Of a stretch of DNA of 64,000 nt, positions 4,941 through 57,758 are shown in pieces. Source of the DNA: Asterella californica (Eukaryota; Streptophyta; Marchantiopsida; Marchantiales; Aytoniaceae); NCBI GenBank assembly GCA_036924285.1, contig JAYKYS010000008.1, positions 20,011,001 through 20,075,000 of the forward strand. The letters are read 5' to 3'. The position numbers were made by a program, and so were the translations under genes. Every line of letters begins with the position of its first letter. Position 1 is the first letter of the stretch. The notes beneath the pieces were generated by a model, which was given only the letters and a program-made list of their open reading frames with translations, was not told where the DNA came from and did no database searches.

Positions 4941-5104
4941 TAAACAGCGCGTAAACAGCTCGTAGCTACCTGCGACTATAAACAAGTGGTAACGTAAACC
5001 TCATCGTAAAGATAAACAGCTCCCTTTCAAACCGTCTACCTGCGATTGTAAATAGCTCGTAAAGGCTAACAGCTCGTAAAGGTGGACAACTCGTAAAGAT
5101 AAAC

Positions 5105-6040
5105 AACGATTTGGAGAATGCAAAGCTACCTGCGACTGAAAAGTGCTCGTACAGTAATAAAGCTCGTAAAGGTGAACAGCTCGTAAAGGTAAACAACCAT
5201 TTGGAGATGCAAAGTTACCTGCGACTGAAAAGTGCTCGTAATGTAAACCAGCAGAAAAAGGTGAACTGCTCGCAAACAAACTGTGAGGCGTGCGACTGTA
5301 AACTGTTCGTGTAGGTAAACAACGATTTGGAGATGCAAAGTTACCTGCGACTGAAAAATGCTCGTAATGTAAACCAGCAGGTAAATGTGAACAGCTCGCA
5401 AACAAACCGTGAGGCGTGCGACTGTAAACTGTTCGTGTAGGTAAACAACGATTTGGAGATGCAAAGTTACCTGCGACTGAAAAATGCTCGTAATGTAAAC
5501 CAGCAGGTAAAGGTGAACAGCTCGCAAACAAACCGTGAGGCGTGCGACTGTAAACTGTTCGTGTAGGTAAACAACGATTTGGAGATGCAAAGTTACCTGC
5601 GACTGAAAAATGCTCGTAATGTAAACCAGCAGGTAAAGGTGAACAGCTCGCAAACAAACCGTGAGTCCTGCGACTGTAAACAGCTCGTGTAGGTAAACAA
5701 CGATTTGGAGATGCAAATCGAACCTGCGACTGAAAAGTGCGAGAAATGTAAACCAGCAGGTAAACTGCTCGCAAACAATTCATGAGTCCTGCGACTGTAA
5801 ACAGCTCGTGTAGGTAAACAACGATTTGGAGATGCAAATCGAACCTGCGACTGAAAAGTGCGAGAAATGTAAACCAGCAGGTAAAGGTAAATTGCTCGCA
5901 AACAATTCGTGAGTCCTGCGACTGTAAACAGCTCGTGTAGGTAAACAACGATTTGGAGATGCAAATCGAACCTGCGACTGAAAAGTGCGAGAAATGTAAA
6001 CCAGCAGGTAAAGGTAAACTGCTCGCAAACAAACAGTGAG
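5105..6040. repeat. 126-bp minisatellite array inside Harbinger element
   Basis: The marker AAC(G/C)ATTTGGAGATGCAAA recurs at 5195, 5321, 5447, 5573, 5699, 5820 and 5947, giving steps of 126, 126, 126, 126, 121 and 127 bp. A variant first copy is at 5105. The copies near 5321-5699 are nearly identical, and the rightmost three form a subfamily. Because 126 is divisible by three, long open frames appear in several minus-strand frames, including a 402-codon one at 5001-6209. I treat these as by-products of the repeat. Confidence 0.92.
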
Positions 6041-6284
6041 TCGTGCGACAGTAAACGGAGTACTGAAAACCGAAGGGGTCCTTCAACAGTAAAAGAAACC
6101 GGTAAGTCATTGACAGTCGATACAACGATGGAAATTTTCGAGGATCATAAAAACTCAGACGGTAAGCAGCAGTTCGAAATGAAGCGAAATTTATATACAA
6201 TCTTTCCAAGTCTTGAAGAAGGAAAGGTGGAGTTCCACATTGCAGGTTGCCTAGGCAACGATATGTACATATCGAAGTACCTCC

Positions 6285-24807: not shown

Positions 24808-25738
24808 AGTATCACCGAGTGGGGCTTATCGAAGTTGTTCCTGCAAGCGAAGTCCCAGTCCATTGTTCTCACGCACAGCAGCTTCTTTACACAAGTGTTA
24901 CTACTGACGATCAAGTCAGGGGGAAGGATAAACAAAGGTAACTGTACAGTGACAGGCGCTCGCAACTGCTGTCAGAATTATACGTCGCGTGCCACTTGCT
25001 TCCAAAACGACGTTCACATGGATAATACAGAGGACATGGCAAGAATATAACAATCTGAGTGTGAAAGGCGGCCCTCCTCTTTGGAGACGAAACAGCTTAT
25101 AGGAACCGTTACTACAATATATTATGGAATCAGATCTTCTTGGTCTATTGTCAACCAACTGGCTTGACGCACGTAGAGCTCATGCTGTACTTCACGTGGG
25201 TACATGCATTTCTTCACGACGAAGAGAAGACACTGAAGACCAGAATCTTTGTCTACCGGTATGTAGAAAATGTCAAGGCTGACGACAAAAAGCATTTCCT
25301 CTTGGAACTGATACTCTTGGAATGTTCAATGTAAGATAATTACCGTCACTGTTTCAGTATTGTGCTGCTCTCATGAACTTAAAATTACTCATTCTGTTTG
25401 ACTTTCTTCCACCTTTGGCCCATGCAACATCATCTTACGCGTATCGCTTGCAAAGAACTGCCTACTTCGCAGCTCAAATATTGCGATGGGAACTTACTAC
25501 CAAAACAACAACATAGCATCTTTGCTCGGGAATCGAGCAGCCTCATTAGGACAGAAGAAAGAGTCACGCCAAAACCTCTTTCAAGTCGCACCGTTAAATT
25601 GAGGCCCTCCTTTCTTCACTGGAATTTGGAACTGAAGCGGATTGCCACCTTACATCTGCGTTCTTCTCACACATTAGTTTCGGAGCTGCTACGTGGGCTT
25701 CATTCAACTGACGTGCCTTCCAGCTCTTACTTCCACTT
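24808..25738. other. 3' flank of KDSR gene
   Basis: Probably includes the 3' UTR of the KDSR gene. Short open frames at 24835-25334 and 25398-25763 have no recognisable content; the last runs into the copia LTR. Confidence 0.4.
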
Positions 25739-26002
25739 TGTTAGAATACTGTACGCAGTGTGAATACCCCTCTTAGCAGTAAGCAGTTCAGGCTTTTAGG
25801 ATGGTGACCTTTCGTAAGGTCACCAAGGCCAAGACCCCAAGGTATATTATTCTGGCTGGAGGCCATTGTACATTATTGAGTATCTACTTACTTGGTTTTG
25901 CCTACACTCTATTGAGGAGCTCTCCCCACACTCTCACACTGTCCTTATGCCGTGACTTAGAGTTTTACCTTAGTCTATTCTATTAGCAGTCCATTTCCAA
26001 CA
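25739..26002 (+). repeat. 5' LTR of the young copia element
   Basis: 264 bp, TG...CA ends, identical by eye to 31911-32174. It contains a perfect 9-bp hairpin at 25803-25824 (GGTGACCTT, loop TCGT, AAGGTCACC) and a TATA-like TATATTAT at 25843-25850. Confidence 0.96.
25803..25850 (+). promoter_or_regulatory. LTR hairpin followed by TATA-like box
   Basis: A perfect 9-bp stem with a 4-nt loop (25803-25824) lies 18 bp before TATATTAT (25843-25850). The same arrangement recurs in the 3' LTR at 31975-32022. A TATA box here would place the transcript start near the middle of the LTR, which is usual. The hairpin could be a DNA element upstream of the promoter, or an RNA structure in the 3' end of the transcript. 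Function is inferred only from position. Confidence 0.45.
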
Positions 26003-26014
26003 TGGTATCAGAGC
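26003..26014 (+). other. Primer binding site, initiator Met tRNA
   Basis: TGGTATCAGAGC immediately after the LTR, the canonical plant copia primer site. Confidence 0.95.
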
Positions 26015-26186
26015 TTTGCATTGTTGATGCACTAGCACAATAGCATAGGCACTAGGTAGGCCTTCGGCCCTTAGGTGAGAGCAGTTGGAGGACGCTTCAG
26101 CTGCTGCGAGAAGGACGCTTCACGCACCCATATTCTGTACCTTCGCTAACAGAATTTCACCGTTCCAGCGATCAATCTGATACAGA

Positions 26187-29100
26187 ATGTCTGCCCCCTT
26201 TGACACCAAAGGCTGGGCCAAGTTCGACGGCACATACTTCACGCTGTGGAAGCACAAGACAACCTTGCGGCTCAGGGCCCATGGTGTTCTTGACATCGTG
26301 GAAGGGAACGTGCAGAGACCACGTGCCACGACGCCCGGAGGTACTGCGGTACCCATCCCTCCCCCTGCTACCGGACCCGGTAGCATCGCAGATTGGGATC
26401 AGCGTGACGTTAACGCACTCGCAGCGATCAACGAATGTTGCGAGAACAGCGTGGCAGGACATCTAATGTCCTGCGCCACATCGAACGATGCATGGTCCAC
26501 CTTGACCAGACACTTTGCAGGTCAAGACATGGTGACCAAGATGCACTTGAGAGAGAAGTTGCGGGTTTTAAAGATGAAACCCAACGAGACTGTTACCCAA
26601 CATGTCAACAACTTCAAGTCTCTCATCCAGCAGATGACTTCAGCTGGATTGATAATTGCCAACGAGGAGCAAGTCCTCGCGTTGATGGGCAGCATGCCCA
26701 ACAACTACCATCTATTTTTGCAGGCGATGAGAACGAACCCAAATCTCTCGCTACAGGACCTCATCACCTTCCTCATCCAGGAGGAAACGATCGGTCGCAA
26801 ATTATCGATGGAACCATCCACTGCCTTGTTTGCAGGACGCCGGCAAGGAGGACGCAATGGCAACAACCGGCGCAACAATGGCAACAACCGACAAGGTGGC
26901 AACCAGCCACCAAAGAGACCGCCAGATCCTAACGAGAAATGTTTTCAGTGCAACAAGCCCGGGCACCGCATCGCCGAGTGTCCGGACAAACCCAGCAGCA
27001 GTAATGACAACTCGACTGCTGGTAACAAAAACAAGAACAAGAATCGCCGTTCCCAAAACAACAACGGCAACACTCGTCGGGTTCTGGTGGCGCAATGTTC
27101 GTCTGCAATCGTGCAGACAGCTGATCCCAACTGGTATGTGGACACGGGTGCCACACACCACATGGCGCATAATCGACGACAATTCGTCGAATACTCACCC
27201 GTCTCTTCTGAGAACACCGAGAACGATGCAATTCTACTCGGTGACAACACCACCATCCACGTTGCTGGTTCCGGCATGGTGGAAGTGCGCCTGCTCAACG
27301 GCGAGCATGTGTACATACGTGACGTTCTTCACGTACCCGCCTTGCAAAAGAATTTATTCTCAGCTCGGCAATTTGATGCCAATGGCGGTTGGTGCCTAAT
27401 CGGCAACGGATTCTGTCATCTTGAAGACAGATTCGGTCAAGTGCTAGCTCCCTGTCCCACTGTGGACGATCTCTACATGCTCGGAAATTCAATTTTGGTC
27501 GCTGACCAAACCGCGCTTATAGCTACAGCTGGTAGGACTTCAGTAATCCACACACTACCTCCCAGCCAGCGATCAGGACCGCGCTTGCGAGCTAGACCAC
27601 AATCTAATCAGCGGACTAGCATCTCACTATACAACCGCAACATGCGCAGGATCCGCTTCCCACGGTCCAGGCCCAGCCCCGCCTCACAGATTGCGCACAC
27701 CCAAGCTGAAATTCAGCCAAGTCACTCACGGAATTTTCAAATCCCTAATTCTGAGCACTCTCTCACTAGAGAAGTCCCAATCACTCCACCAAATTCGGAG
27801 TTGTCCCACTTGGAAAATGAAGGCCCAAATTCAGTCCGCGCGGGGTCTACCCCCCTCACCACCACACCCCTTGGGCAATTTCCTGTTAGGACTCCACCTC
27901 TTGGTGCTCCACCTCCTCCACGCATGACCACAGGCCGCACACGGATCGAGTCGTTTCCCTCTACACGGATCGACTCAGCTGGCACACCTCTAGGAAGCCT
28001 CGCACCCCTAAGCCAAATCATTACTGCAGCGGCCACGCACCCCTTGAGTGCATACACGGATCCCGCAGCCAGTGGGGACTTTCACGCGCCCCCTCATCGC
28101 ACACCCATCTCCGGAGACCCTCACGACGCCCCTCCACGCGCGCCGTTCCAGGATGGGGATGGGGACCCCATCCGGATAGGAATGGGATCCCCATCCGCGC
28201 CGCATGCATTGCGCATGCGGCGCGGGGGCAATCCCCCCCGCAATGAGGATCGGGATGGGGATGCGATCCCCATCCAGATGGGGCCATCCCCATCTAGGCG
28301 TACGTCCCCGCGCAGCGGGGACGCACGCACCATATCCCCGCGGTGGCGGGGATATGATGGCACCCCCGCATCGGGGGTGCTGCCCCCGCATCCCCGCAAT
28401 GGGGATGCGTGCCCCCTATCCCCGCCGCCGCGGGGATATGGGAGCAGGGATGCGCATCCCCACATCGGGGAGCGCACATCCCCGCGCGGGGGAGCCGGCC
28501 CCTTACCGCGCGGGGCCGGCAATCTAACCCCCGCGGACTGCCCCGAAGGCAGTCCGCCAGGGGACCAAGGGGACGGTCCCTCTCACAGGGACGTAGTCCC
28601 CCGGACTGGGACGCAGGGACTTCTTGGCCCTGGTCCTTATAATCTTCCTCCGGTTTCCCTCCTCCATCTCGATCCAGCTCTGAATTTTCCCGACTTACAC
28701 CCTGCAAATTCCGAGTTCTTCAGATCACGATCTCCTCCGCGCCTACTAGACGGCATCCAGGGTTTCACATCTGGCAGTCGGACTCCTCCACCGACGCCAC
28801 CTAGACCCTGTGCCCTCGTTACTACGACGGGCGATCTCTCTACCTTGTGGCATCAGCGACTCGGCCATATCAACCATCATCGAGTTCATGAACTGAGCCA
28901 CCGCAGGTACGTTACCGGCCTCCCTTCCTTCCCGCTCTCTGAGGATATTTGTCCAGCTTGTGCACACGGCAAGCATGCACGCACTAAATTCCCACGTGCC
29001 AGCTCCACTCGATCTACTCGTCCTCTGGCACTGGTCCATTCTGATATTAGTGGTCGCATCTCCCCTTGCACCTTTTCTGGCTATGAGTATTTCATCACCT

Positions 29101-31874
29101 TTATTGATGATTACTCGCGCTACACTGTCACTCGTCTTCTCTACTATAAGAGTGACTGTTTTGCTGCTTTCCGGGACTATCTAGCATTTGCTGAGCGCGC
29201 CACTGGCCAATCTCTCGTCACTTTGCGATCTGACAATGGCGGGGAATATCGTTCAGCTGCTTTTGACGCTTTCTGTCGCGAGCGTGGCATCCAGCGTCAA
29301 TTCACAGTCCCTTACTCTCCTCAGCAGAATGGCGTTGCTGAACGTAAGAACCGCAGCTTGCTTGATGCTGTCCGTTCCATGCTTTACACTTCCACGCTCA
29401 TCAAGCCCTTCTGGGGTGAAGCAATCACCTGCGCCACCTTCCTCCAGAACCGGTGTCCGTCTAAGGCTATCCCGTCTATGACCACACCTTATGAACTCTG
29501 GCACTCCTATGCCTCCACAACACCTCGTCGACCCGATCTCTCCTTTCTGCGCGTCTTTGGCTGCCGCGCTTTTTCCCAGGTCCCCGAGGTTGAGCGCACA
29601 AAGCTCGATGATCGCTCTCACGAGTGTATCTTCCTAGGCTATAGCGGCCAGAGTAAGGGTTACCGTCTCCAAAGAAAATCTGACGGTCATACCTTCACTT
29701 CTCGTGATGTTATCTTCGATGAGTCTTCTCCGACTCTCCCTCCCACATCCACCCCCTCTGCTGATCTCCCACTCACTCAAGCATCTCCTGAGACCAACGT
29801 CCATTTTTATCATACTGTGCCCGCTCCTTCAGCTGGCCCAGCTCATTTCTCGTCGGTCTCTCCCGGTTTCTCTTCAGTGGGAGTTCCTCTGCCATCTCCT
29901 GCCCATCCAGCTCCAACCCCATCCACTGGTCTTGGATCTGGAGGAGGAGTCCCTAGCAGTCATGGCCTTGGCGGAGGAGTCACCAGCAGTACACAGTCCA
30001 GTGGGAGCAGTCGTCCTCCACGTTCTCACTCTTCAAGCACTCACTCTCCCCCTGCAGAGAACTTGAGCCCGCGCCATCCTTACCTTCGGCGCACATCACC
30101 ACGCTCACCACGAGTTTCCAGCTCCACCCACAGCGAGTCCTCTCTTCCTCCATTGGATTTCCCAGCACCGCCTCCATTGAGACGATCAGCTCGTCATTCA
30201 GTTCCTCCACAGCGGAACCCAGATGAAGGCTACGACCCTTCATCGCTGATCCCGAAGTCTCGGAAGACCACCAAGCGGGCATTGATGGTAACTCTTAAAC
30301 CAGTGCCAATGGAACCTGTTTCTTACACAGAAGCAGTATCTTCCCCTGATGCCGATCAGTGGAGAAGAGCAATAGAGGAGGAGCTTGATTCCCACGAATC
30401 CAACGGCACCTGGAAGCTCACCGATTTGCCACAAGGACGCCGACCGATAACATGTAAGTGGACCTTTAAGTTAAAACTTAATACCGATGGGTCCATTGCC
30501 CGTTATAAGGCGAGACTAGTGGCTCGTGGTTTCACCCAGATCTACGGGTTGGACTACACAGAAACCTTTTCCCCTGTAGTCCGCATTCAGTCTATACGGC
30601 TTATCCTTGCCATCTCAGCGCAGTATAATCTACATGTACATCAAATGGATGTTAAAACTGCATTTCTGAATGGAACACTTAACGAGGAAATATACATGAG
30701 TGTTCCGGAAGGCGTGACTACAGCAAGGCGCAGTCAAGTATGCAGATTGCTCAAGACTCTCTACGGTCTTAAGCAATCATCAAGAGAATGGTACTTGATC
30801 ATCGACAACTTCTTGCTTTCTCTTGGATTTGCTAAGTCCGGTGCAGACGGAAACGTTTACTACTTGCACCAGAAACAGCATTTCGTCATCCTTGCCCTCT
30901 ACGTAGATGACACTGTGATTGCCAGCAGCAGTGAGGCTCTACTGTCTCACGTAAAAGGAAAATTGAGCTCACGGTTCAGCATGACTGACATCGGTCCAGT
31001 CCATCATTGCCTTAGCATTGAGATTAATCGTGATCCATCTTCTGGCACTATCAGACTTAGTCAAACTTTGTATTTGACACAGAAACTATTTCAGTTTGGC
31101 TTACAGGACTGCAAACCTGTAAGCACTCCTCTAGTTACAGGTGAGAAACTATCTTCGGATGACTCTCCTGTCACTGAGGATGAAAAGAAGCTATGTAATA
31201 GTTATCCTTACCAGAGTGCAGCCGGCTCTATTAATTGGACTGCAGTATGTACTCGTCCTGATTTGTCTTATCCCATTAGTGTACTCTCCCAGTTCATGAG
31301 TAGCCCTGGACCTAAGCACATTGCCGCTATGAAGCGGGTTTTCCGTTACATCAAGGGAACTCTAAATTTGTACCTTGAGTATGCTCACTCACCCCAGCCC
31401 TACTCTCTGTTCGGTTACACCGATGCTGATTGGGGAGGACATGCGGAGACAAGACGATCCACATCAGGACATTGCTTCATCTACTCTGGAGGAGCCATCA
31501 GTTGGTCCTCCAAGAGACAGAAATCAGTAGCCTTGTCAAGTACAGAGGCAGAATATGTAGCTCTTAGCACGAGCTGCTCAGAGACAATCTGGTTACGTCA
31601 GCTCCTGACCGACATCGGATTGCATGACAAGGAGCCGACCGTTACATATTGTGACAACCAAAGTGCTATGGCCCTTGTCGACACCAGCAAGTTCCACGAC
31701 CGTACGAAGCACATCGACATCCGATATCACTTCATCAAAGATCACGTCGCTGGAAAAGTTATAGAAGTTAGATATTGTCCTACTGAGGACATGGTTGCAG
31801 ATATTCTGACAAAGAGCTTACCAGCTCCCAAGTTGGATTATGTACTACCGAAGCTAGGAATGTTTTCTAGCTAA
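26187..31874 (+). CDS. Ty1/copia Gag-Pol polyprotein, 1895 aa, intact
   Basis: Domains in order: Gag core (1-240); CCHC knuckle CFQCNKPGHRIAEC near 252; protease YVDTGATHHM with Asp319; a Pro/Arg/Gly-rich linker of about 450 residues (430-880). Then come GAG-pre-integrase LWHQRLGHINHH near 887 with CPAC; the integrase core with Asp near 953 (HSDISG), Asp near 1014 (RSDNGGEY) and Glu near 1051 (GVAERKNRS). RT follows from about 1407 with YVDDTVIASS near 1571, then RNase H YTDADWGG near 1743 and LSSTEAEY. The start ATG lies 172 nt after the primer site. All catalytic residues are present and there is no stop. Copia polyproteins are usually about 1300-1500 aa. The excess is in the linker, which is encoded partly by the hairpin array at 28151-28600. 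It makes virus-like particles and performs reverse transcription and integration. Confidence 0.96.
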   Translation: MSAPFDTKGWAKFDGTYFTLWKHKTTLRLRAHGVLDIVEGNVQRPRATTPGGTAVPIPPPATGPGSIADWDQRDVNALAAINECCENSVAGHLMSCATSNDAWSTLTRHFAGQDMVTKMHLREKLRVLKMKPNETVTQHVNNFKSLIQQMTSAGLIIANEEQVLALMGSMPNNYHLFLQAMRTNPNLSLQDLITFLIQEETIGRKLSMEPSTALFAGRRQGGRNGNNRRNNGNNRQGGNQPPKRPPDPNEKCFQCNKPGHRIAECPDKPSSSNDNSTAGNKNKNKNRRSQNNNGNTRRVLVAQCSSAIVQTADPNWYVDTGATHHMAHNRRQFVEYSPVSSENTENDAILLGDNTTIHVAGSGMVEVRLLNGEHVYIRDVLHVPALQKNLFSARQFDANGGWCLIGNGFCHLEDRFGQVLAPCPTVDDLYMLGNSILVADQTALIATAGRTSVIHTLPPSQRSGPRLRARPQSNQRTSISLYNRNMRRIRFPRSRPSPASQIAHTQAEIQPSHSRNFQIPNSEHSLTREVPITPPNSELSHLENEGPNSVRAGSTPLTTTPLGQFPVRTPPLGAPPPPRMTTGRTRIESFPSTRIDSAGTPLGSLAPLSQIITAAATHPLSAYTDPAASGDFHAPPHRTPISGDPHDAPPRAPFQDGDGDPIRIGMGSPSAPHALRMRRGGNPPRNEDRDGDAIPIQMGPSPSRRTSPRSGDARTISPRWRGYDGTPASGVLPPHPRNGDACPLSPPPRGYGSRDAHPHIGERTSPRGGAGPLPRGAGNLTPADCPEGSPPGDQGDGPSHRDVVPRTGTQGLLGPGPYNLPPVSLLHLDPALNFPDLHPANSEFFRSRSPPRLLDGIQGFTSGSRTPPPTPPRPCALVTTTGDLSTLWHQRLGHINHHRVHELSHRRYVTGLPSFPLSEDICPACAHGKHARTKFPRASSTRSTRPLALVHSDISGRISPCTFSGYEYFITFIDDYSRYTVTRLLYYKSDCFAAFRDYLAFAERATGQSLVTLRSDNGGEYRSAAFDAFCRERGIQRQFTVPYSPQQNGVAERKNRSLLDAVRSMLYTSTLIKPFWGEAITCATFLQNRCPSKAIPSMTTPYELWHSYASTTPRRPDLSFLRVFGCRAFSQVPEVERTKLDDRSHECIFLGYSGQSKGYRLQRKSDGHTFTSRDVIFDESSPTLPPTSTPSADLPLTQASPETNVHFYHTVPAPSAGPAHFSSVSPGFSSVGVPLPSPAHPAPTPSTGLGSGGGVPSSHGLGGGVTSSTQSSGSSRPPRSHSSSTHSPPAENLSPRHPYLRRTSPRSPRVSSSTHSESSLPPLDFPAPPPLRRSARHSVPPQRNPDEGYDPSSLIPKSRKTTKRALMVTLKPVPMEPVSYTEAVSSPDADQWRRAIEEELDSHESNGTWKLTDLPQGRRPITCKWTFKLKLNTDGSIARYKARLVARGFTQIYGLDYTETFSPVVRIQSIRLILAISAQYNLHVHQMDVKTAFLNGTLNEEIYMSVPEGVTTARRSQVCRLLKTLYGLKQSSREWYLIIDNFLLSLGFAKSGADGNVYYLHQKQHFVILALYVDDTVIASSSEALLSHVKGKLSSRFSMTDIGPVHHCLSIEINRDPSSGTIRLSQTLYLTQKLFQFGLQDCKPVSTPLVTGEKLSSDDSPVTEDEKKLCNSYPYQSAAGSINWTAVCTRPDLSYPISVLSQFMSSPGPKHIAAMKRVFRYIKGTLNLYLEYAHSPQPYSLFGYTDADWGGHAETRRSTSGHCFIYSGGAISWSSKRQKSVALSSTEAEYVALSTSCSETIWLRQLLTDIGLHDKEPTVTYCDNQSAMALVDTSKFHDRTKHIDIRYHFIKDHVAGKVIEVRYCPTEDMVADILTKSLPAPKLDYVLPKLGMFSS
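28151..28600. repeat. Array of about 15 consecutive short hairpins inside the copia ORF
   Basis: Perfect stems follow one another with almost no gaps. Listed as left arm / right arm, they are: 28157-64/28166-73, 28197-207/28213-23 (11 bp), 28253-62/28266-75 (10 bp), 28276-83/28288-95, 28303-11/28315-23, 28331-41/28346-56 (11 bp), 28360-68/28372-80, 28387-95/28401-09, 28417-25/28430-38, 28447-53/28454-60, 28480-85/28486-91, 28494-502/28512-20 and 28533-42/28548-57 (10 bp). Shorter ones lie at 28570-80 and 28588-600. Stem sequences differ from each other but share a CCCC/GGGG core, often in ATCCCC...GGGGAT form. Loops are mostly 0-5 nt. The segment is much more GC-rich than the rest of the element and lies between the protease and integrase coding parts. 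Confidence 0.95.
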
Positions 31875-31900
31875 GTAATATTTTTTATCCGAACTGTTAC

Positions 31901-31910
31901 TGAGTGGGAG
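31901..31910 (+). other. Polypurine tract of copia element
   Basis: TGAGTGGGAG directly before the 3' LTR; primes plus-strand DNA synthesis in LTR elements. Confidence 0.75.
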
Positions 31911-32174
31911 TGTTAGAATACTGTACGCAGTGTGAATACCCCTCTTAGCAGTAAGCAGTTCAGGCTTTTAGGATGGTGACCTTTCGTAAGGTCACCAAGG
32001 CCAAGACCCCAAGGTATATTATTCTGGCTGGAGGCCATTGTACATTATTGAGTATCTACTTACTTGGTTTTGCCTACACTCTATTGAGGAGCTCTCCCCA
32101 CACTCTCACACTGTCCTTATGCCGTGACTTAGAGTTTTACCTTAGTCTATTCTATTAGCAGTCCATTTCCAACA
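31911..32174 (+). repeat. 3' LTR of the young copia element
   Basis: 264 bp, identical by eye to the 5' LTR; followed by the CACTT target copy at 32175-32179. Confidence 0.96.
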
Positions 32175-33976
32175 CACTTCCCTTTAATGACAGTGAACTG
32201 ATCTCCAGGGGACTACTGTTCGAATTCGACTCACCAAGTGGTGGCTAAGTACAGTTCCAATGAACGATCCTAAAGTTGGTTCGTGTTTCTCAAGGGTCCA
32301 ATGAACGATCCTTGGAAACTTCGTAATCTATTTTAATGTTTCCTTGGAAACCTCCTAATCTATTCTGAAGTTGGTTCATGTTTCTCAAGAACAGAATGGC
32401 CTATAACTATGAGCACTAAAACTATGAATGGGAAGCACATGAGCATATAGATGGAGGCGATGATATCACGTGTGGTCAGGAGTTAACGGCTCTGCATGAT
32501 GCGAAGTAGTTCACGTTGAGTAATCAGCACTAACAACTGGACAGTGGCAGAATCTAATCCACTCGAGACTCGAGAACCTTAACTAGTTCATGTTTTCACA
32601 CTTGTGCTTTGTTCCATGTTGAAGTGTTGATTCATTGCAGTATTAAGTCCCTAAGTGAACACTACTTTTCATGTTCTTTCGGTACGCGTTACAGTGACAA
32701 GTGGAGTCTGTCAGTGCACGCAGTTGGTATGCCGTACACTTGGATGCAGCAAACTGAGCCCACAGAGGAGCTGTATAGCATACTTCAGTGATAATCCACT
32801 TTGCGCAATCATCGTGCGCGATTTGAAAAGGTATATACATTCACATATGGCACATATGAACAGTTTTCGCAGTTATCACATCACGCATAAAGAGCCTGAC
32901 ATTCAGCTTTTTCGCGCGAACTTACAGAAAGTGCAGGACTGCGAAAAAACTCATTAGATGAATCCATCAAGATCAGTAGCTGGCAACCCCTCCCGCATGA
33001 AGCCGCGCTGGCGTGGGGTTCCCGGATGGAGCCTGGAGGCCGCATGCAGTGCTCGGAGAGTTTCGGTATTCAGTGTTGTGACTTCAGTATATTTCTGGTC
33101 AGGCTCTGTAATATCCCGTTCGGTCTGCTTTGAATCTATTCACACACGAGAGTTTAGGAATAAAATGATGCTACAGTACATACTTTCTCCTATTTCTACT
33201 CGTTGGGAGTATAAACCGTGTAGTGTGATAATCTTGTTCTCATAAAAGCACTTTAGTTTTGTTTATACCAAAATGGCGAATGATTACCGACATATTTAGC
33301 GCGTGTCAAAGCTAAATCATAAGATTCTATAACGTCCAGAAGGAAAAGTTATGTATTTTATCGAACGAGATCTTAGTATAGAGTTGTGGATAGCTTATGG
33401 TAGTATATGTGTTGATTTTTAATTTTTAATTTAAAAAAATTTGAAATCAATTCTTTGAGTTTAAACTTCTTTACAAACGGAACTCATGGCAGAATCGGAT
33501 GAAAGGTCAATAAGAAACACTTGCGGCCTCTTGGCTGAACAAGCACCCCAATGGTTTGAACGTTGGTGGTTGCGGGGTCCTCTAAAATTCTTGCTGACTG
33601 TTGGCTGCATGTCTTCGAAAGTAAGCTGGGGCAGAGTGCGGTTACCATAATTTCTGGTTGGCCGTTGTCGTGTTATGACACGGCTCACATATGAATTTAG
33701 CATAGAACTTGTATTGTGTTACTTTTTACGTCTCTTTCATGTAACTCACTAACAGCATATTAGGTGTCACATTCATGGTCATCTAGAATATGAGATCGCA
33801 CGATAATGAGAAGTGCCAGCTCAGTGATCAGTGGACATTCATGTGAGTGGCTCTTGTTGTCAAATCTGGGTATAAGATAGAGGGTCAAAGATTCATGAGA
33901 CATTCTTCTTTAGATGGTGTTTCGTGAGTGTGTCTTATGTCTTACGTGACGGGTGAAGAGTTACAAAAGTTATATT
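32175..33976. other. Gene-free spacer
   Basis: Short open frames only, without family resemblance. The stretch around 33420-33460 is a simple AT-rich tract. Confidence 0.4.
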
Positions 33977-43084: not shown

Positions 43085-44989
43085 TGTGGTACCCACAAAT
43101 TACAGGATTCACAAATTTTTGAAAATTTTAAGATTAATAACTTGTTAACTGAAGAAGCGTTGTTACTTAAGATTACGGCTTCTTTAGCAGGAAGATGATC
43201 TTAAGGGCTGTTTGTAATAATAAGTTGACTTCTTCGGAAGACGGCGGAAGACACGCATCTTCCGGAAGACGGCAACCATGGAAGCTTAACCACGTAAGGA
43301 GTAGGTGCACCTACCAGGTAGCACCGAGAGATTAGGTAGGTCAGGAGGGTCGAAACTCCTAAACTGCGGGGAAGATGCACAGGAAGCGCATTAGCACAGA
43401 AACCTACCTGCTTCCCGCATCGAGAGATTGGAGAACGAGAAGATCGATTCAGGCAGCGAGTTGATTTGAGTGAGGAAATCAGCGAGTGAAATCTAGTGAG
43501 GTTAGATCGATTCGAAGCTAGAATAAAGACGAAGTCGAATTGCTGAGCGCAGAAGAGTGTCGAGCTGAAGACGGTTTTCTGTGAGCTCCCGGAAGCTGAC
43601 ATTGGAGGGTGGCTGAGTAGAATCGAAGGTGGAATTGAGACGTAGCCAGAAGCTGACCGCAGAAGTAGCCTTCTGGGGTCGCGTTGGAGCTAGAACTAGA
43701 GACAAAAGCGCGCAGAAGATCGAAGACAGCTCAGGAAGTCGACAGAAGACAGTAGAGGTTCTTCTCATGTTCTCTTTCCTTCCCCACTGCTTCTCGCCTT
43801 TGTTTGGTATCCCCCGCGCTTCCTCGGTTGTTTGCAGGCAGCCTGATCGATCAATCCCCCACCCCTATTTTCCTATTGTGACATTGGGTGCGAAGCGCTG
43901 CCCAATTTCTGTCAGACATCTTCCTACTTCTTCCCGAGTTCAATTCGAGCTTCCCTACTCCTAGCCCTCAAATTGGAGATCCCCGCTATCAATTTCTCTA
44001 TCCTACCATCTCCTCTACTCCCGAAACCTTGAACAAAAGACGCTTCGGAAGATTGGAACATCTTCGGAAGACTGTCTTCAGAAGACGCTTCAGTAGCTGA
44101 TTGTCTTCAGAAGTCGACTGTGCACAATTCGTATCAAGAGTGGATTTGCTTTGCTTTTGTGATAAGAGAGGCTTGGTACGAATTCCGAGTGGCTTGGTGA
44201 GTTGTTTGTTATTTCGAGAAGTTGGAAGTCGGGAACTAGGCCTGTGCCTCCCGGTCTTCCAAGCTTCTCAAATCCACATCTTCCTAGAGAGACTAGAAGA
44301 CTGGAAGGGCGGGCAAAATGCGCGAGAAGACGTGAGGGTCCACTTCGGGTCTCTTCTGTCCGACCCATAGCAGCCCATTCCTTCTTCTTCCTGAACTTAG
44401 GAGAGAGTCGTGAGAAGTCTTGCCGGCAGAATCTAGAGAGAATGGTCGAGGGTCATGTCTTCCCATCGAGCAGCAAGCTTCTTCTGAGTGTGTATGAGAG
44501 GTGAGAAGTCAGAAAAACAAAGTGCAAATGTCTTGAGTCTGTTGTGAGGATAGATTGCGTGTAGGAAGGAGAAGACAGGTGAGACCAGTGAAGGGAAGCC
44601 TGACTTCGAGAGGTCTTCCGAGAAAGACATTGAATCGGAAGCTGTCTTGGGGGTCTTCCCAGAGGTCACTGTCATCGCAGGAGCCCGCAATCATCTTTTG
44701 AACCTGTTGTGCACTCTACGTTTCGCGAATCTTGTATCTTCTGATAGGAAGTAGGATGTAATGCAAGGTGGGTTGTCTTCTTAGGAATCCATGCGAGGTC
44801 TTGCTTAGGATTGTTTAGATATAGCTCGGAAGACGAGAGCTATCTAGGAAGTACTGTTAGAATCCCGGAAGACGGAGTAGCTGTCTTCTGGAAGACTAGT
44901 TTCGTCTTCTGAGAAGTAGAAGTTAGACTGTGGGCACTTGGGAAGGACTGAGCCTTCAGCTCACAGTAACTGCGTGTGGCTTAGTCCAA
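43085..44989 (+). repeat. GAAGAC-rich direct repeat, copy A (putative LTR, 1905 bp)
   Basis: Starts TGTGGTACCCACAAATTACA and ends GTGGCTTAGTCCAA, directly joined to copy B, which begins TGTGGTGCCCACAAATTACA. Both copies share the same order of blocks: the ACTGAAGAAGCGTTGTTACT block, many GGAAGAC words, TGCAGGCAGCCTGATCGAT, CGCTGCCCAATTTCTGTCAG, and GGACTGAGCCTTCAGCTCA near the end. TG at the start and CA at the end of copy B fit an LTR. However, the ORF starts only 11 nt after copy B, leaving little room for a primer site. It may instead be a duplicated promoter/leader block. Confidence 0.75.
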
Positions 44990-46057
44990 TGTGGTGCCCA
45001 CAAATTACAAGATGCACGAATTTTTGAAATTTTTAAGAATAATAACTTGTTTGTATAACTGAAGAAGCGTTGTTACTTAAGGTTACGTCTTCCTTAACAT
45101 GAAGATGACCTTATGAGCTTTTTAATAAGAAGTGGACTTCTTCGGAAGACGACCGTCTTCGGAAGAGCGTCTTCTCAGTTGCGTCTTCAGAAGACGGGAA
45201 GACGGCGGAAGATGAGAAGACGACGGAAGACACATGTCTTCCGGAAGACAGCGACCGCGAAGGCCTAACCACGAGTTTTCGGGTAAAATAGTAGGTGTAC
45301 CTACTGGGTCGCACCGAATAGGTAGGTAGGTCGGGGAAGACACCTAAGGTCGAAAACCCCTAATCTACGGGGAAGATGCGTAAGGAAGCACATTAGGCGC
45401 ATTCCAACTTCTCGCAGCACAGCGCGCTTGAGAAGATCGATTGGAGAGAGTGAGCTTCGCAAGTAAGCTTTGAGAGAAGAATCGAGTGAGGACATCGAGA
45501 TAGGAGAGAACCCGTTGGCAGCTAGACGAAGGGCGAGACCGAATTTCTGAAGCACAGAAGGCAGAAAGCGAAAGCGTTTTTGTGATCTCCCGAGAAGCTG
45601 ACATCAGAGAGTAGCGAGTAGAATCGAAGGTAGAATCGAGGCGTGGTCAGAAATTGACAGCAGGCGCCGTCGAGAGGAGTCGCATTGGAGCTAGGACAAG
45701 AGCCAGAAGCGCGCGGAGGTCGAAGGCAACTCAGGGAGCAGAAGAAGATTGTAGAGGTTCTTCCCCACGTTCTTTCCCCTTCCCACTTCTTCTCGCCTTT
45801 GTCTGGTATTCCCCGCGCTTCCTTGGTTGTGTGCAGGCAGCCTGATCGATTACCCCACCCCCCATTCTTTCTATTGACACATTGGGCGCGGAAGCGCTGC
45901 CCAATTTCTGTCAGACATTTCTTTGCTTCTTCCCGAGCTCAATTCGAGCTTCCTTACTCCTAGCCCTCAAATTGGAGATCCCAGCTATCAATTTCCCTAC
46001 CCTACTACCTCTCTACCCCCGAAACCTGGAACAGAAGACGATTTGGAAGATGGGAAC
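44990..46057 (+). repeat. GAAGAC-rich direct repeat, copy B, left part
   Basis: First half of copy B, homologous to 43085-44053 of copy A. It ends in GAAGATGGGAAC, where the nested gypsy element is inserted. The rest continues at 56814. Confidence 0.85.
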
Positions 46058-46970
46058 TATAAACCCTCCGCGGTCCTATCGATCAACTACCCCCCGATCT
46101 CTTAACCTCCACGATCGTCATCCACGAATCTGCAACATGTCGGGCCTGTCTCTCACTCAGGGGTCACCTCTGATGGCTTTGATGGAAGCACACCATGAAC
46201 TTGAAGGGAAAATGCTGAGTTCACTCATTCATACACCCACAAACTTATCAACTAAAAATCTCCTTAAACACATCAACTAAAATCCTCCATTCTAACGACG
46301 TCTCTCAAGTTCTCACATGCTAAAAATATCCCACACTCTCTATATTACTCAAGTTGTCATTACGACAATGTGAAAACAAGGATGAGGAGCTCTTCTCTAC
46401 TCCTCTATTTATACATTCTAGGTTTTTACTTTGGTACCCTCGGTAACTCAGCCGTAACTACTTTTACCGGATTTTACTAAGATATTACTTAAGGTAAAAG
46501 CATTGATCACATGGGCTTTTTACCTTTTCACATGGGCTTATTCCTTCAAAGTCAACAACTTCTAGAAGGATTCTGGAATATTCTCAAGGAATCTCGAATT
46601 TCCACCCCCTCTCTACACTAGGACCCACTAAAAAGGAAACATGTGGAATCTCTTCTTGTTTTTAATGCCCACAAAGTCCACAACTTTAATCCAACCACTA
46701 ATATCAAGTCAAAAAGGAGATAAGGGATACTTTCCACCTCCTTTCTACCTTTTAGACAAGATGACAAGATAGTAGTGCTCACTCTTTAGCAAATATCTGA
46801 ATTCTGCCAAAAGTACAGCTAAGTTTAACCATAACTAACTTTTAGATAGTCATGACTAACTTGATACATCCTTAAAGTACTTTGGCAGCCAATAAACATT
46901 CTCAACACTTAGTTATAACTAACCACCTTACTAATAGACAAACTTCCTATGTGTAACATAGGTCGTTACA
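46058..46970 (-). repeat. 3' LTR of nested gypsy element (913 bp)
   Basis: On the minus strand it starts TGTAACGACCTATG and ends GGAGGGTTTATA, where the other LTR ends TTTACA. It has a 22-bp duplication-like insertion around 46520-46550 that the other LTR lacks. Confidence 0.95.
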
Positions 46971-49294: not shown

Positions 49295-52200
49295 CTACGA
49301 CAACGCCTGAGCTCGTTCCATCCGGATCATTGCTACCGCTCGGGTCTCTTCCAACTCCATGAGTTGCTCCCTTCTTGATCTGACCACGTCTTCTCCTCTC
49401 GACCTCTTCAACTTTCGTTGAATAGTTTGAAAAGTATCCAATTCGAATTGGATCGGCAACTTGGACTCCACTCCATAAACCAGTCGAAATGGGGAGTATC
49501 CAGTAGAAGTCTTTGTTGTCGTTCGGTACTTCCATAAGATGGCATGTAGCCTCTTATCCCAAGTATGTTTCGCAGTTTCAACACCAGCGTCTTTGGCGAG
49601 CATCATACAAAGTGTAAGATTGGTCTTCTCCGCAAGACCATTAGCATTTGGTTTGTATGAGGTCGTTACTCGTGGCTTGATAGAAAAGTGTTGTAGCATA
49701 GCAGTAGTCATGCTCCTTACAAACTCTCCTCCTCTATCTGAGACCAACTCTAACGGACATCCAAATCTCGTGATGATCCTCTCCCATAGGAATCTACCGA
49801 CTTCTGTTTCATTGGTCTCTCTCAAAGGTCTAGCCTCTACCCACTTGGTACAATAGTCAGTGGCGACTACAATGTATCTATTACCTCGAGGTGTCTTATT
49901 AAGAGGACCTACAAAGTCAATACCCCATTTCTCAAACGGCCCTAATACTGGAATTGATCTTAACGGAGGTGTTCTAGTAGACTTTAGAGCAAATGCTTGA
50001 CATACGTCACAAGTTTTGCAATAGTCTAAACACTCTTTGAAAATCCCTCTCCAGTGATAACCCGCATCCAAAATCTTGAAGGCTGTTATCTTACCAGCAA
50101 AGTGACCTCCGCAAACAGTTCCGTCGTGAAACTCGTGCATTAGCTTGAATGCCTCCTTCTGACCAACTGCTCTCCTTAGTAACCCATCTGCTCCTTGATG
50201 AAACAGAATTCCCTCCACCATGGTGTAAGGTTTGCATCTCTTGATCAACGCGTTACGTTCTCGGGTATGCATACCTTCTGGAAAAGAGTCATCTACAAAG
50301 AAACTCCAGATTTCCTTGTACTCGTCCGGTATCTCCTCGATGCTTGTGATGGTCATCAGATGCTCGTCTGGAAATGAATCATCAAACGGTTCTTCTCCCT
50401 CATCATCATAAGCCCTTGACAAAAGATCAGCATTTGCATGCTTCTTCCCTGGTCTATCTTCGATCACATAATCGTATTCTGTTAGAAGGATCTTCCAACG
50501 AGCAATACGACCTTCGGCATTAGGCTTATTAAAGATATACTTTAAAGCCTTGTGATCTGTGACTATGGAAAATTTCCCTCCTAGCAAGTAGTGTCGAAAT
50601 TTCTTCAATCCAAAGATCACCGCTAATCCTTCTCGTTCAGTCACGGAGTAATTCTTCTCCGCTGGAACCATCTGCCTACTAGCATAAGCTATAGGATGAT
50701 CATGCCCATCTCCATCTAGCTGACTTAATGTACATCCGATTGCTACATTGGAGGCATCCGTATACAAAATAAATGCTTTACTCCACTCAGGTTTAGCAAG
50801 TATAGGAGCTGTCACTAATGCCTTTTTCAGCTCCTCAAATGCTTCCTTTGCCTTCTGATCATGCACTATCAAGCCAAAATCAACTCCATTCTTCATGTAC
50901 ATAGTCAAAGCTATTGCTTTGTTTGAGAAGGAAAAGACAAACCTACGATAATATCCAACCATGCCAAGAAACTGCCTCAACTTTGTCAAGTTGATCGGAA
51001 ATGGAAGATCCACAATCTTCTTCACCTTCTCAGGATCTACCGCAATCCCATTCTTGGAAATGATGTGCCCTAATAGCAGACCTTCTTCGCAGCCAAAGAT
51101 GCACTTCTCTGGATTTAGAGAAGCGTTGGCTTGCTCCAACCGCTGCAAAACTTTGATCACATGATCAAAGTGGTCCTCCTTTCGTCCGTACACACAGAAA
51201 TCGTCAATGAAATCCCGAACAAACTTCCCTATGAATGGTTCAAACACCTTGTTCATGAACCTTTGAAACGTGGCCGGAGCATTACACAATCCGAATGGCA
51301 TCACCCGAAATGCAAATGTTCCCCAAGGAGTAGTGAAAGTAGTCAACTGTTGGTACTCTTGTGCTATCTTGATCTGGTTATACCCACTATAACCATCACC
51401 AAAGTTGTACCACTCATGACCAGCAACTTCCTCCAAAATCTCATCTATAAATGGTAGAGGATAATAATCCTTCTTGGTAACTGCATTCAGCTTCTTATAG
51501 TCTATGCACACTCGCAGCTTACCATTTTTCTTCTTGACAATCACAATGGGTGAAACCCATTCTGAGTTCTCCACCTCATAGATGAAACTCGCCTCCTTCA
51601 ACTTGTCTATCTCCTCCTTGACCATCATTGCCGTTATGGGATTGACCCTTCTCTGCTTCTGTCGAACTGGTCTTACGTGCTCCTGCAATTCGATTCGATG
51701 AGTCTCGAGAGTCATCTCCTTCAAATCCTTGTAGCTGAAAGCAAACACATGGATATATTTTCGAAATATATCTAGGAATCTACTTTTCTCTTCTTGAGTG
51801 ACATTGATACCAAACTTCAGGGTAGAGAGTCTTCTCACAATCTCTGCCTCACTCAACTCTTCTTTGTCAGGATCTTTCTCCACTGCTGGTCGAGGCAACA
51901 AGTCAATAGCACTAAGCTGATGTAATGATTCATCTCGACCAAATCCTTCTTCCTCAGACGAGGATTCTTGATCGTAAGAATCTCCGGTATCTACTTCTGA
52001 TACACTCTGATCATCCTCCGTATCAGATTCCCAATAGTCACTAGTGGATCTATCAGAGTCAGAAGTCACAACTCCAACACCCGAGAGAGGAACTATCACT
52101 CTATGATCTCTAGGCACAATCCGTAAATATCTCTTGTGCCACCTATCAGTGGTGCGCACAGCTCTCAACCAAGGCCTACCTAGGAGCAAATCATAACTAG

Positions 52201-53884
52201 AGTCCTTTAACACTTGAAAGGACATCAACGTTTGAACTCCCATCACAGACACGACCACCTTCTCTAACACATCAAGAGGTCTTACCCGTTGCTTGTTAGC
52301 CATCCCCACGACAATGCTAGCCGGGCGAGTTGGTTCCATCCCCAACTTCTTCATCAACCTCTCTGATATGACATTTACAGCCGATCCTCCATCCACCAAT
52401 ACGTCAGAGACGTAGTGACCATTCAACCGGACTTCAATCTTTGAAGCCCTAGTGCATACCTCTGAAGCATGCACATCCACCACACCAACTCCCACAGACT
52501 TTGATGTTTTGCTCTTGGGTTTCTTCTTCTTGCTTCTCTTAGAACTCAGTCCTCCTCTGAGTTCCCTTCGTAAGCTGGGATTAAGTGCGATCAGTTGTCC
52601 AACAGTGATGTTGGCTTTCTGAGCACCCACATCTTCAACCACATCATATCCCGCTTGGGAAGATGAAATGGTGAAATCCGCCATCCCCAGCTTCCTTCTT
52701 GGCTCCCTTGGTGTACTCGAAACATTACTCGAACGAGTACTTCTACTAGCTGATTCCTCCATGAAAACCGGTTCATCAGAAAATCGAGTTCTTTTCCTTT
52801 CTTGAGCTAAAAGCTCCACCGGTGCATGAGAAGAGTTTGAACTCTCTCCTTTCTCGTAGATGGGATCTTGCACGACATCGATAGTAGCCACCCCCTTGTC
52901 TCGTCCTTGTGATGGATTTCCTCCACCCACATTCATTCTGATAGCTTCGGCACCTCTTGCTCCGTTGTTAGGACAATTTCGCTGGAAATGAGAACCTCCA
53001 CACGTCCAACAAGTGATTCCTCCAAAGTTACCTTGATTTCCTCGGTTGGGATTGTTGTCGTAACCTCTTTGACCTCCTTCTCCACCTTTGTTCCTCCATT
53101 CTCGTAACTGCATCACGTTTATCTTGAGATCCGCAAGAGTATCGGTGATGCTCTTCAGCTCGGCATGAAAATCAGAGGTGGCAGTAGACATCGTTGTTGG
53201 GACAAACGGTCTTGGCACCACCGTTGGAGTAGGAGCTGACGTTGAAGCAATCACCAATTGTGATGGTGCAGGTGCGATCGTTGTGACTATACTAGGAGTC
53301 GGAGTTGACACCACAGCAGCATGATGAGGTTGGATGATATCTCCTTCATCCAAACTCTCTTCCATATTTGTCGCAATCTTGATGGCCTCCGCTTTGGTTG
53401 CTGGCTTCTCGTACCTCACTTGGGTTCGAATTGAAGGCCTCAACCCTCCCACCAAGTTCTTGGTCAGCACTGCTCCAATCCTCGCCATCGTTAGTTCCAC
53501 ATTGTCTCCACTCTTCCGTAGGACCGTCCGAAATCGCTGCTCCAACTTATCCACCCTTTCGGCATATTGCCGAACTTTCTCATCGTCACGTTGCTTCAAA
53601 TGAGTAAGCTCCACCATGAGCTTCTCATAACTCTCTTCTGGAAGAAATTCTTCGATGAGTGCATTACTCAACGTCTCCCATGTGTCCTCAATTGCACCAG
53701 GTGTCTTGCTCTTCACTCGGTCGTCATATCACGTAAGAGCAAAATCTTCTAAAAACTCTGGCAGTAACAACACCCATTCTTCCTTCCTTCTCACGTTGTT
53801 TCCGATGCAACCCCTTTTGAAGTCTCGAACAAACGGTTCTACATCTTCATTGTCCTTCTCATGAAACACGGGTAGCTTTCCCAT
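49295..53884 (-). pseudogene. Ty3/gypsy Gag-Pol polyprotein (Gag to integrase core)
   Basis: The frame starts at ATG 53884 (MGKLPVFHEKDNEDV). It has one TGA at 53729-53731 (codon 52), where the sequence context (before YDD) suggests a lost Trp, and is then open to 49295. Approximate residue positions are: Gag 1-280; CCHC CWTCGGSHFQRNC near 291; protease VDGGSAVNVI near 496; RT from about 760 with FRVMPFGLCNAPATFQRF and the active-site box FIDD (51200-51211, residue 892). RNase H YTDASN is near 1041. Integrase has an HHCC zinc finger near 1255-1290 and a core with GIDFVGP (about 1322), SDRGGEF (about 1383) and GLAEK (about 1415). The FIDDFCVYG box resembles Athila/Tat-type RTs more than chromoviruses. 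The C-terminal integrase lies at 46973-47275. Confidence 0.92.
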
Positions 53885-55916: not shown

Positions 55917-56809
55917 TGTAAACCCTCCGCGGTCTTATCGATCAACTACCCCCTGATCTCTTAACCTCCACGATCGTCATCCACGAATCTGCAACATGTC
56001 GGGCCTGTCTCTCACTCAGGGGTCACCTCTGATGGCTTTGATGGAAGCACACCATGAACTTGAAGGGAAAATGCTGAGTTCACTCATTCATACACCCACA
56101 AACTTATCAACTAAAAATCTCCTTAAACACATCAACTAAAATCCTCCATTCTAACGACGTCTTTCAAGTTCTCACATGCTAAAAATATCCCACACTCTCT
56201 ATATTACTCAAGTTGTCATTACGACAATGTGAAAACAAGGATGAGGAGCTCTTCTCTACTCCCTCTATTTATACATTCTAGGTTTTTACTTTGGTACCCC
56301 CGGTAACTCAGCCGTAACTACTTTTACCGGGTTTTACTAAGATATTACTTAAGGTAAAAGCATTGATCACATGGGCTTTTTACCTCAAAGTTAACAACTT
56401 CTAGAAGGATTCTGGAATATTCTCAAGGAATCTTGAATTTCCACCCCCCCTCTACACTAGGACCCACTAAAAAGGAAACATGTGGAATCTCTTCTTGTTT
56501 TTAATGCCCACAAAGTCCACAACTTTAATCCAACCACTAATATCAAGTCAAAAAAGAGATAAGAGATACTTTCCACCTCCTTTCTACCTTTTAGACAAGA
56601 TGACAAGATAGTAGTGCTCACTCTTTAGCAAATATCTGAATTCTGTCAAAAGTACAGCTAAGTTTAACCATAACTAACTTTTAGATAGTCATGACTAACT
56701 TGATACATCCTTAAAGTACTTTGGCAGCCAATAAACATTCTCAACACTTAGTTATAACTAAACACCTTACTAATAGATAAACTTCCTATGTGTAACATAG
56801 GTCGTTACA
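55917..56809 (-). repeat. 5' LTR of nested gypsy element (893 bp)
   Basis: Minus strand TGTAACGACCTATG to GGAGGGTTTACA, near-identical to 46058-46970. Confidence 0.95.
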
Positions 56810-56813
56810 GAAC

Positions 56814-57747
56814 ATCTTCGGAAGACGCTTCTTAAACTTGACTGTCTTCGGAAGACTGTCTTCGGAAGTCGACTGAACACAATTCGTATCAAGAGTAGAT
56901 TTGTGTTGCTTTGTGTTAAGAGAGGCTTGGTACGAATCTCGAGTGGTGTGGTGAGTTGCTTTGTTATTTCGAGAAGTTGGAAGTCGGGAACTAGGCTTGT
57001 GCCTCCTGGTCTTCCAGGCTTCTCAACTCCACATCTTCCTAGAGAGACTAGAAGACTGAAAGGCTGACAAAATGAGCGAGAAGACGTGAGGGTCCATTCG
57101 GGTCTCTTCTGTCCGATCCATAGCAGCCATTTCTTCTTCTTCCTGAACTTAGAAGAGAGTCGTGAGAATACTTGCTGGTAGAATCTGGAGAGAATGGTCG
57201 AGGGTCATGTCTTCCCACCGAGCAGCAAGGTTCTTCTGAGTGCGTATGAGAGGTGAGAAGTCAGAAGAACAGAGTGCAATTGTCTTGAGTCTGTTGTGAG
57301 GATAGATTGCGCGTAGGAAGACGAAGACAGATGAGACCAGTGAAGGGAAGTCTGACTTCGGAAAGTCTTCCGAGAAATACATTGAATCGGAAGCTGTCCC
57401 GAGTGTCTTCCCAGAGACCACTGTCACCGCAGGAGCCCGCAACCGACTTCCTAACTTGTCATGCACTTTATGTTTCGCGAATCTTGTATCTTCTGATAGG
57501 AAGTAGGATGTAATGCAAGGTGGGTTGTCTTCTTGGTAATCCATGCGAGGTCTTGCTTAGATAGGATTGCTTAGATATAGCTCGGAAGACGAGAGCTATC
57601 TAGGAAGTACGGTTAGAATCCCGGAAGACGGAGTAGCTTTCTTCTGGAAGACTAGTTTCGTCTTCTGAGAAGTAGAAGCTAGACTGTGGGCACTTGGGAA
57701 GGACTGAGCCTTCAGCTCATCGTAAGTGCTTGTGGCTTAGTGCAACA
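56814..57747 (+). repeat. GAAGAC-rich direct repeat, copy B, right part
   Basis: Continues copy B after the nested gypsy; homologous to about 44058-44989 of copy A (CAATTCGTATCAAGAGT, CTTCCTAGAGAGACTAGAAG, GGACTGAGCCTTCAGCTCA). The end at TGCAACA is provisional, because copy A stops at CCAA. Confidence 0.8.
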
Positions 57748-57758
57748 GATCTTCTAGC

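Follow-up and report, generated by a model that had tools for sequence, protein, structure and literature searches.

A fast-changing hairpin array inside the gag-pol frame of a copia-type retrotransposon of Asterella californica, with a possible origin in slippage and strand-switching

A series of short hairpins of differing sequence, packed almost end to end within the reading frame of a retrotransposon, raises two related questions: by what process such an array could be generated, and what keeps its arms paired. The locus lies in a 64,000-nt stretch of Asterella californica DNA (contig JAYKYS010000008.1, 20,011,001-20,075,000, forward strand), called here the window, to which all coordinates refer. 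Its carrier is a complete copia-type LTR retrotransposon spanning 25739-32174 (Table 1), with the paired LTRs and short target duplication (CACTT) of the Ty1/copia type and a copia-like order of Pfam domains (gag_2, Pol_BBD, gag_pre-integrs, rve, RVT_2). Since both 264-bp LTRs are identical and CACTT stands on either side, the element looks young. Its putative primer-binding site, TGGTATCAGAGC, presumably resembles plant initiator-tRNA sites. Each LTR also holds a perfect hairpin (25802-25825 and 31974-31997) with 10-bp arms and the loop TCGT, and in the gag of the same element there is a second, weaker low-energy stretch (26481-26720, z -3.8 and -4.5).

Table 1. The element, its insert and the individual units of the hairpin array, in window coordinates
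Feature	Coordinates	Strand	Basis or remark
5' LTR, 264 bp	25739..26002	+	identical to 31911-32174; CACTT flank at 25734-25738
Putative primer-binding site TGGTATCAGAGC	26003..26014	+	sequence, immediately 3' of 5' LTR
gag-pol frame, 1895 aa	26187..31874	+	uninterrupted across hairpin array
Retrotran_gag_2	26271..26789	+	Pfam
Pol_BBD (protease region)	27132..27386	+	Pfam
Insert, 436 codons, between protease and integrase	27507..28814	+	spacing compared with related proteins
Hairpin array	28151..28612		inverted-repeat counts, shuffles, folding
Hairpin	28157..28173		arm 8, loop 1
Hairpin	28195..28225		arm 13, loop 5
Hairpin H5	28253..28275		arm 10, loop 3
20-nt stretch	28266..28285		twice in tandem in sister L012
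Hairpin	28276..28295		arm 8, loop 4
Hairpin H7	28298..28328		arm 14 with one mismatch, loop GCA (TGC in L015, L019, L026)
31-nt stretch	28315..28345		absent from sister L014
Hairpin H8	28331..28356		arm 11, loop GGTG (CACC in L015, L019, L026)
Hairpin H9	28360..28380		arm 9, loop 3
20-nt stretch	28363..28382		absent from sister L013
Hairpin H10	28387..28409		arm 9, loop 5
Hairpin H11	28417..28438		arm 9, loop 4; near-exact inverted copy of H8
Hairpin H12	28447..28460		arm 7, loop 0
Hairpin	28494..28520		arm 9, loop 9
Hairpin H16	28533..28557		arm 10, loop 5
gag_pre-integrs domain	28806..28976	+	Pfam
Integrase core (rve)	29016..29321	+	Pfam
Reverse transcriptase (RVT_2)	30402..31136	+	Pfam
3' LTR, 264 bp	31911..32174	+	identical to 5' LTR; CACTT at 32175-32179

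The window holds several other repeated features. GAAGAC/GTCTTC motifs, which occur in both orientations and form small palindromes, are clustered at 44820-45360 and 56790-57100 in a different repeated element (90% match between 44056-44989 and 56810-57745) and may be binding-site clusters. A 0.9-kb direct repeat, 96% identical (46060-46970 and 55919-56809), likely represents the terminal repeats of another element around a 1473-aa open frame on the minus strand (49295-53716), which by eye resembles a Ty3/gypsy-type polyprotein. Two copies of a 2-kb coding repeat, 85% identical, occupy 57741-60004 and 61722-63980, and a tandem repeat with a 126-bp period at 5036-6056 keeps a 402-aa minus-strand frame open.

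The array sits between the Pol_BBD and gag_pre-integrase domains (Pfam), in an insert corresponding to residues 441-876 of the 1895-aa frame. The distance from protease to integrase is thus 436 aa in the window element, against -29 to 17 aa (median 3) in 111 of the 113 related proteins, out of 128 fetched, in which both flanks could be placed; the exceptions are P0007, with 78 aa, and the composite protein P0010. The best-matching single-element relative listed, P0025, is 38% identical over gag-PR and 47-48% identical over IN and RT, but has no insert between protease and integrase. The search for a flanking duplication around the insert gave only chance matches of 7-8 nt. Relatives of the insert outside the host genome were found neither in genome contigs nor in viral contigs scanned with the polyprotein, its RT part and the array pattern, nor in distant DNA searches of phages and plasmids, nor in a protein search with the insert in which 7965 candidates were scored.

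The frame that crosses the insert is open, as an earlier reading of the sequence alone had stated. The insert contains no in-frame stop, as against 9 to 19 in the other five frames; within the array alone, however, the other frames show just 1-3 stops, so that the open frame there is weak evidence. A comparison of the window with the related copy L024 gave dN/dS ratios of 0.05 for gag-PR, 0.03 for IN and 0.03 for RT, 0.42 for part A of the insert (its first 450 nt) and 0.26 for its last 174 nt (47 codons aligned). The values against L018 are 0.03 for gag-PR, 0.47 for part A, 0.23 for the insert end, 0.18 for IN and 0.12 for RT; those against L016 are 0.40 for part A, 0.12 for the insert end, 0.10 for IN and 0.12 for RT, the L016 gag-PR value (0.63) being left out because the alignment is out of register there. 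The stop-free frame and the higher dN/dS of the insert relative to its neighbors suggest that this linker is probably translated, its sequence mattering less.

The array itself is present where the sequence-only reading had placed it and extends slightly beyond, to about 28612. That reading counted at least 13 perfect hairpins with arms of up to 11 bp; the number holds, with 14 perfect inverted repeats having arms of at least 6 bp (11 first counted, the one at 28494-28520, and two with 6-bp arms), but the longest arm measures 13 bp (28195-28225). There are 12 hairpins with arms of at least 7 bp and loops of up to 9 nt, and 10 with arms of at least 8 bp and loops of up to 6 nt, in comparison with a mean of 0.6 and a maximum of 4 in 4000 codon-preserving shuffles. 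When mismatches are allowed, 16 stems comprise 144 pair positions of which only three are mismatched (A-G, A-C and C-T; no G-T). Hairpins of the array were not found elsewhere in the window, Rfam has no match in the window, and no four-run G-quadruplex motif occurs on either strand of 28149-28640.

Folding, which the sequence-only reading had proposed as a check, bears the array out. The minimum free energy of 28149-28601 is -327.1 kcal/mol, against -239.0 +- 7.9 in 300 codon shuffles (z -11.2) and -232.1 +- 7.9 in 300 dinucleotide shuffles (z -12.0), and the four lowest z-scores of 798 windows of 160 nt each all fall within 28161-28560. Lying 11.2 SD below the codon-preserving shuffles, the fold is no by-product of the protein. 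This loss of the fold on codon shuffling is what would be expected if selection preserved the comb of stems as a device within the genomic transcript, serving in export, in packaging or in slowing ribosomes between Gag-PR and IN-RT, with the sequence free to vary as long as it folds; and reviews report structured elements for RNA export from other LTR elements (PMC12786077). The sequence-only reading had named the setting of the Gag:Pol ratio, packaging and dimerisation as candidate roles. The antisense strand, however, folds better than the sense strand (-344.1 vs -327.1), a strand difference that the shuffles share, and we regard such a device as a doubtful explanation. A different solution to the balance of Gag against Pol is described for the Arabidopsis Ty1/copia element EVADE, in which an intron and early polyadenylation yield a spliced short GAG RNA (PMC8892269, PMC12786077); here a simple pattern search for the donor-like motif GTRAGK found none in 26187-28900.

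G-U makes up one of the 160 pairs in the local sense-strand fold (6.5 +- 1.8% in shuffles), and in runs permitting G-U it accounts for 6 of 130 pairs, against 24% by composition. The CCCC/GGGG core that the sequence-only reading had described as shared by the arms lies within the inner six arm positions in 9 of the 12 hairpins, and is thus shared without being universal; in these nine the core sits toward the loop, with the unit-specific part further out. Starts of C-runs are spread over all codon positions (4, 8, 6), and those of G-runs favor one (11 of 15). In seven core-anchored units of the window, the outer arms match their own partner more closely than those of other units, with 24 of 35 matches against a permuted mean of 16.9 (P 0.017).

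How are the units related to each other? They are not tandem copies of a single hairpin, TRF detecting only two short two-copy arrays (28151-28197 and 28360-28425). Adjacent units nonetheless resemble each other more closely than the remaining pairs do (0.184 vs 0.065, P 0.018). Both observations would suit an ordinary minisatellite with a palindromic unit, changing by slippage alone without template switching; yet a uniform repeat unit is lacking, and neighboring units differ by 17-25% while the mismatch within stems is only 3 in 144. The best-matching pair in the array is H8 and the reverse complement of H11, identical at 24 of 25 positions. Seven of the nine best unit pairs align better forward and two inverted, from which it appears that tandem copying is commoner than inverted copying.

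To follow the array through its family, we searched the host genome (516.7 Mb in 773 contigs) with two queries. The first, 28100-28650, listed 40 primary places (the window and L009-L047), all of which were read; the second, the integrase part, was blind to the array, and the best 40 of its 438 candidates were all read, 20 of them already belonging to the first set. The resulting 60 copies consist of the window, 20 copies read at about 8 kb and 39 pieces of 1.3-1.4 kb; as they come from the top of the match lists, distant family members are under-sampled. All the genome matches to the array among those listed and read lie in this copia family. The array-bearing insert is found in 59 of the 60 copies, often as a different version, although in L028, L031 and L044 its first part is unmatched or outside the piece read. 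The sole copy without the array, L064 (G000:C43:5005110-5006510), lost about 1.2 kb in a deletion that shifts the frame and also takes the end of the protease region.

In the last 1000 nt of the inserts (arms of at least 8 bp, loops of up to 6 nt) the 60 copies contain 297 perfect hairpins, whereas dinucleotide shuffles predict 9.5. The number exceeds that of all 40 of a copy's own shuffles in 55 of the 60 copies (the exceptions being L015, L022, L029, L059 and L064) and in 38 of the 40 chosen by integrase. Retention of the insert, and of its hairpins in 55 copies whose array sequences differ widely, again speaks for an RNA device; but the family is young enough for simple inheritance to explain this persistence. 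Among the first 52 copies, 31 inserts were fully read, of which 7 are open and in frame (the window, three sisters and three others) and 24 are not.

The closest copies reveal how quickly the array changes. Six sisters (L009-L014), all with identical LTR pairs, are separated from the window by 9-15 substitutions across 6.4 kb, and three of the six differ from it by a single array gain or loss of 20-31 nt: L012 carries a 20-nt tandem duplication, an exact copy of the neighboring sequence, and L013 and L014 each lack a stretch of 20 and 31 nt, respectively (Table 1). All three changes shift the frame, and the only other gap in the sister alignments is one of 1 nt, in L014. Between L031 and L024, which are 99.7% identical elsewhere in the compared region, there is an in-frame tandem duplication of 99 nt containing several hairpins. 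Insert length ranges from 1055 to 1423 nt among the copies (partly extrapolated), while the starts of IN and RT lie 1572 nt apart in 16, and 1570-1571 nt apart in two, of the 18 copies read at about 8 kb in which both could be placed. The stretches gained or lost measure about 20-31 nt or multiples of this. In the 26 listed pairs, out of 45 compared, 40 indels reach 20 nt or more; 34 of these are either tandem or bounded by direct repeats of 6 nt or longer and six have 0-3 nt, a tally in which copies recur among pairs and events are not independent. Such gain and loss of units with direct-repeat ends is the behavior of a minisatellite.

Hairpin DNA is hard to sequence, and some of the unit differences between near-identical copies could be errors. 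That the array as a whole is an artefact of sequencing or assembly is nevertheless extremely improbable, for its sequence is identical in L009 and one base off in each of L010 and L011, all three on other contigs, and many diverged versions of it occur with diverged flanks.

Two loops show a kind of change that slippage does not produce. In H7 the window shares the loop GCA with five sisters, but L015, L019 and L026 have TGC; in H8 the window and five sisters have GGTG, against CACC in the same three copies. Each loop has thus been replaced by its reverse complement, with flanks, arms and order unchanged. Several out-groups have TGC and CACC as well, which makes the form seen in the window probably the derived one, the direction of change being judged by out-group comparison. 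As the inversions are adjacent and occur in one subfamily, they could be linked. Other loops are also found, in H7 AGC (L022) and TAC (L041), and in H8 ACAG (L017, L020, L029) and CGTC (L022). In the 60 copies, exact reverse-complement loops make up 2 of the 48 same-arm pairs with loops of equal length (3-5 nt), as against about 0.17 expected.

The arms, too, differ between copies in a compensated fashion, which is the covariation that the sequence-only reading had proposed to look for. In H18, a hairpin behind the array, 18 perfect sites read GAGGGCC/GGCCCTC and six CAGGGCC/GGCCCTG, a G-C to C-G exchange for which a route through G-U is impossible. Slippage does not make such a swap on both arms, nor does it invert a loop in place, and we judge a minisatellite changing by slippage alone to be distinctly improbable. 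One H7 pair, in six copies, is G-C in three, A-T in one, A-C in one and A-G in one. Selection on the sense RNA alone should favor G-T mismatches, yet these do not exceed A-C, either in all 3443 matched cells (147 vs 212) or in the strictly matched hairpins (14 vs 19), the latter sum covering H7, H8/H11 and H12 minus the outermost pair and leaving out H5, H9, H10, H16 and H18, whose loose patterns may mix neighboring hairpins. Nothing in these counts accordingly singles out the sense transcript as the strand in which pairing would be selected, and where old copies have mismatched arms, most of the mismatches resemble ordinary decay.

Our preferred reading, which we consider rather probable, is that slippage and strand-switching during copying of the element create this fast-changing hairpin array, in a linker whose frame is open and likely translated, and keep its arms paired. 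A growing strand whose end is a G4 or C4 run would fold back onto a nearby complementary run, copy its own upstream bases as an outer arm and then return to the template; this would explain why the shared core is on the loop side and the outer arms are unit-specific and complementary. Slippage between the shared CCCC/GGGG cores would add and remove units. The polymerase involved could be the reverse transcriptase of the element or the DNA polymerases of the host. The changes would be tolerated in a loose protein linker; a change that preserves the frame could persist there, and one that shifts it would lead nowhere. The gain and loss of units fits slippage, and the inverted loops, the inverted unit copy and the changes on both arms fit template switching in hairpins. 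Of the two origins that the sequence-only reading had offered under repeated birth by a common process, copying by slippage and template switching is thus retained, on the strength of the unit-size gains and losses, the two loop inversions, the compensated arms and the rarity of G-U; the serial insertion of one palindromic micro-element finds no support, because the units are unlike one another both in sequence and in length, and the one clear gain repeats its neighbor exactly and in tandem.

Template-switch mutations are known to create and maintain RNA hairpins (PMC8794818), and the near-perfect arms, few G-U pairs and arm-preserving loop inversion seen here are the marks of that process. 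The hairpins of that study likewise have perfect stems, compensatory pairs and loop inversions arising through copying of the opposite arm; loop inversion alone is enriched there, but compensatory change together with loop inversion is very rare (6 cases, not enriched), a point against our reading. Those cases, however, are single stems in RNA genes, whereas here a whole array in the reading frame of a retrotransposon also undergoes turnover of units. The palindromes of the Volvox organelle genomes (PMC2670323) are similarly short and numerous, with loops of 3-5 nt and, in the plastid, a TCCCC/GGGA core; but they are dispersed, mostly noncoding and share the loop TAAA/TTTA, whereas the present array has one fixed coding place and varied loops. 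Dispersed selfish palindromes of the Volvox type were considered and rejected, there being no other copy in the window and no genome match, among those listed and read, outside this family. Within the open-licence PMC literature, where absence is not proven, we found no description of such a hairpin array in a retrotransposon.

The fold below shuffles, the compensatory changes and the restriction of array loss to L064 leave the array standing as a feature, and the persistence of hairpins despite fast turnover would be expected from selection for structure and equally from a self-renewing array in a young family. The two could be combined in a self-renewing structural module, in which the element's own strand-switching during copying gives birth to hairpins, inverts and loses them, while all that selection keeps in the genomic RNA is a comb of stems, structure then being inherited without sequence; we put this forward tentatively and think it unlikely. 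Whatever the role of its stems, the family supplies a single hairpin array in dozens of natural versions, at a fixed site and between strongly constrained sequences that can serve as a clock. It opens to direct test the long-standing question of the birth of perfect stems and the origin of compensatory changes without broken intermediates, and it demonstrates that a reading frame can tolerate a continuous turnover of hairpins. Were a role in the RNA to be shown, the array would exemplify a structure that is preserved although its sequence is not.
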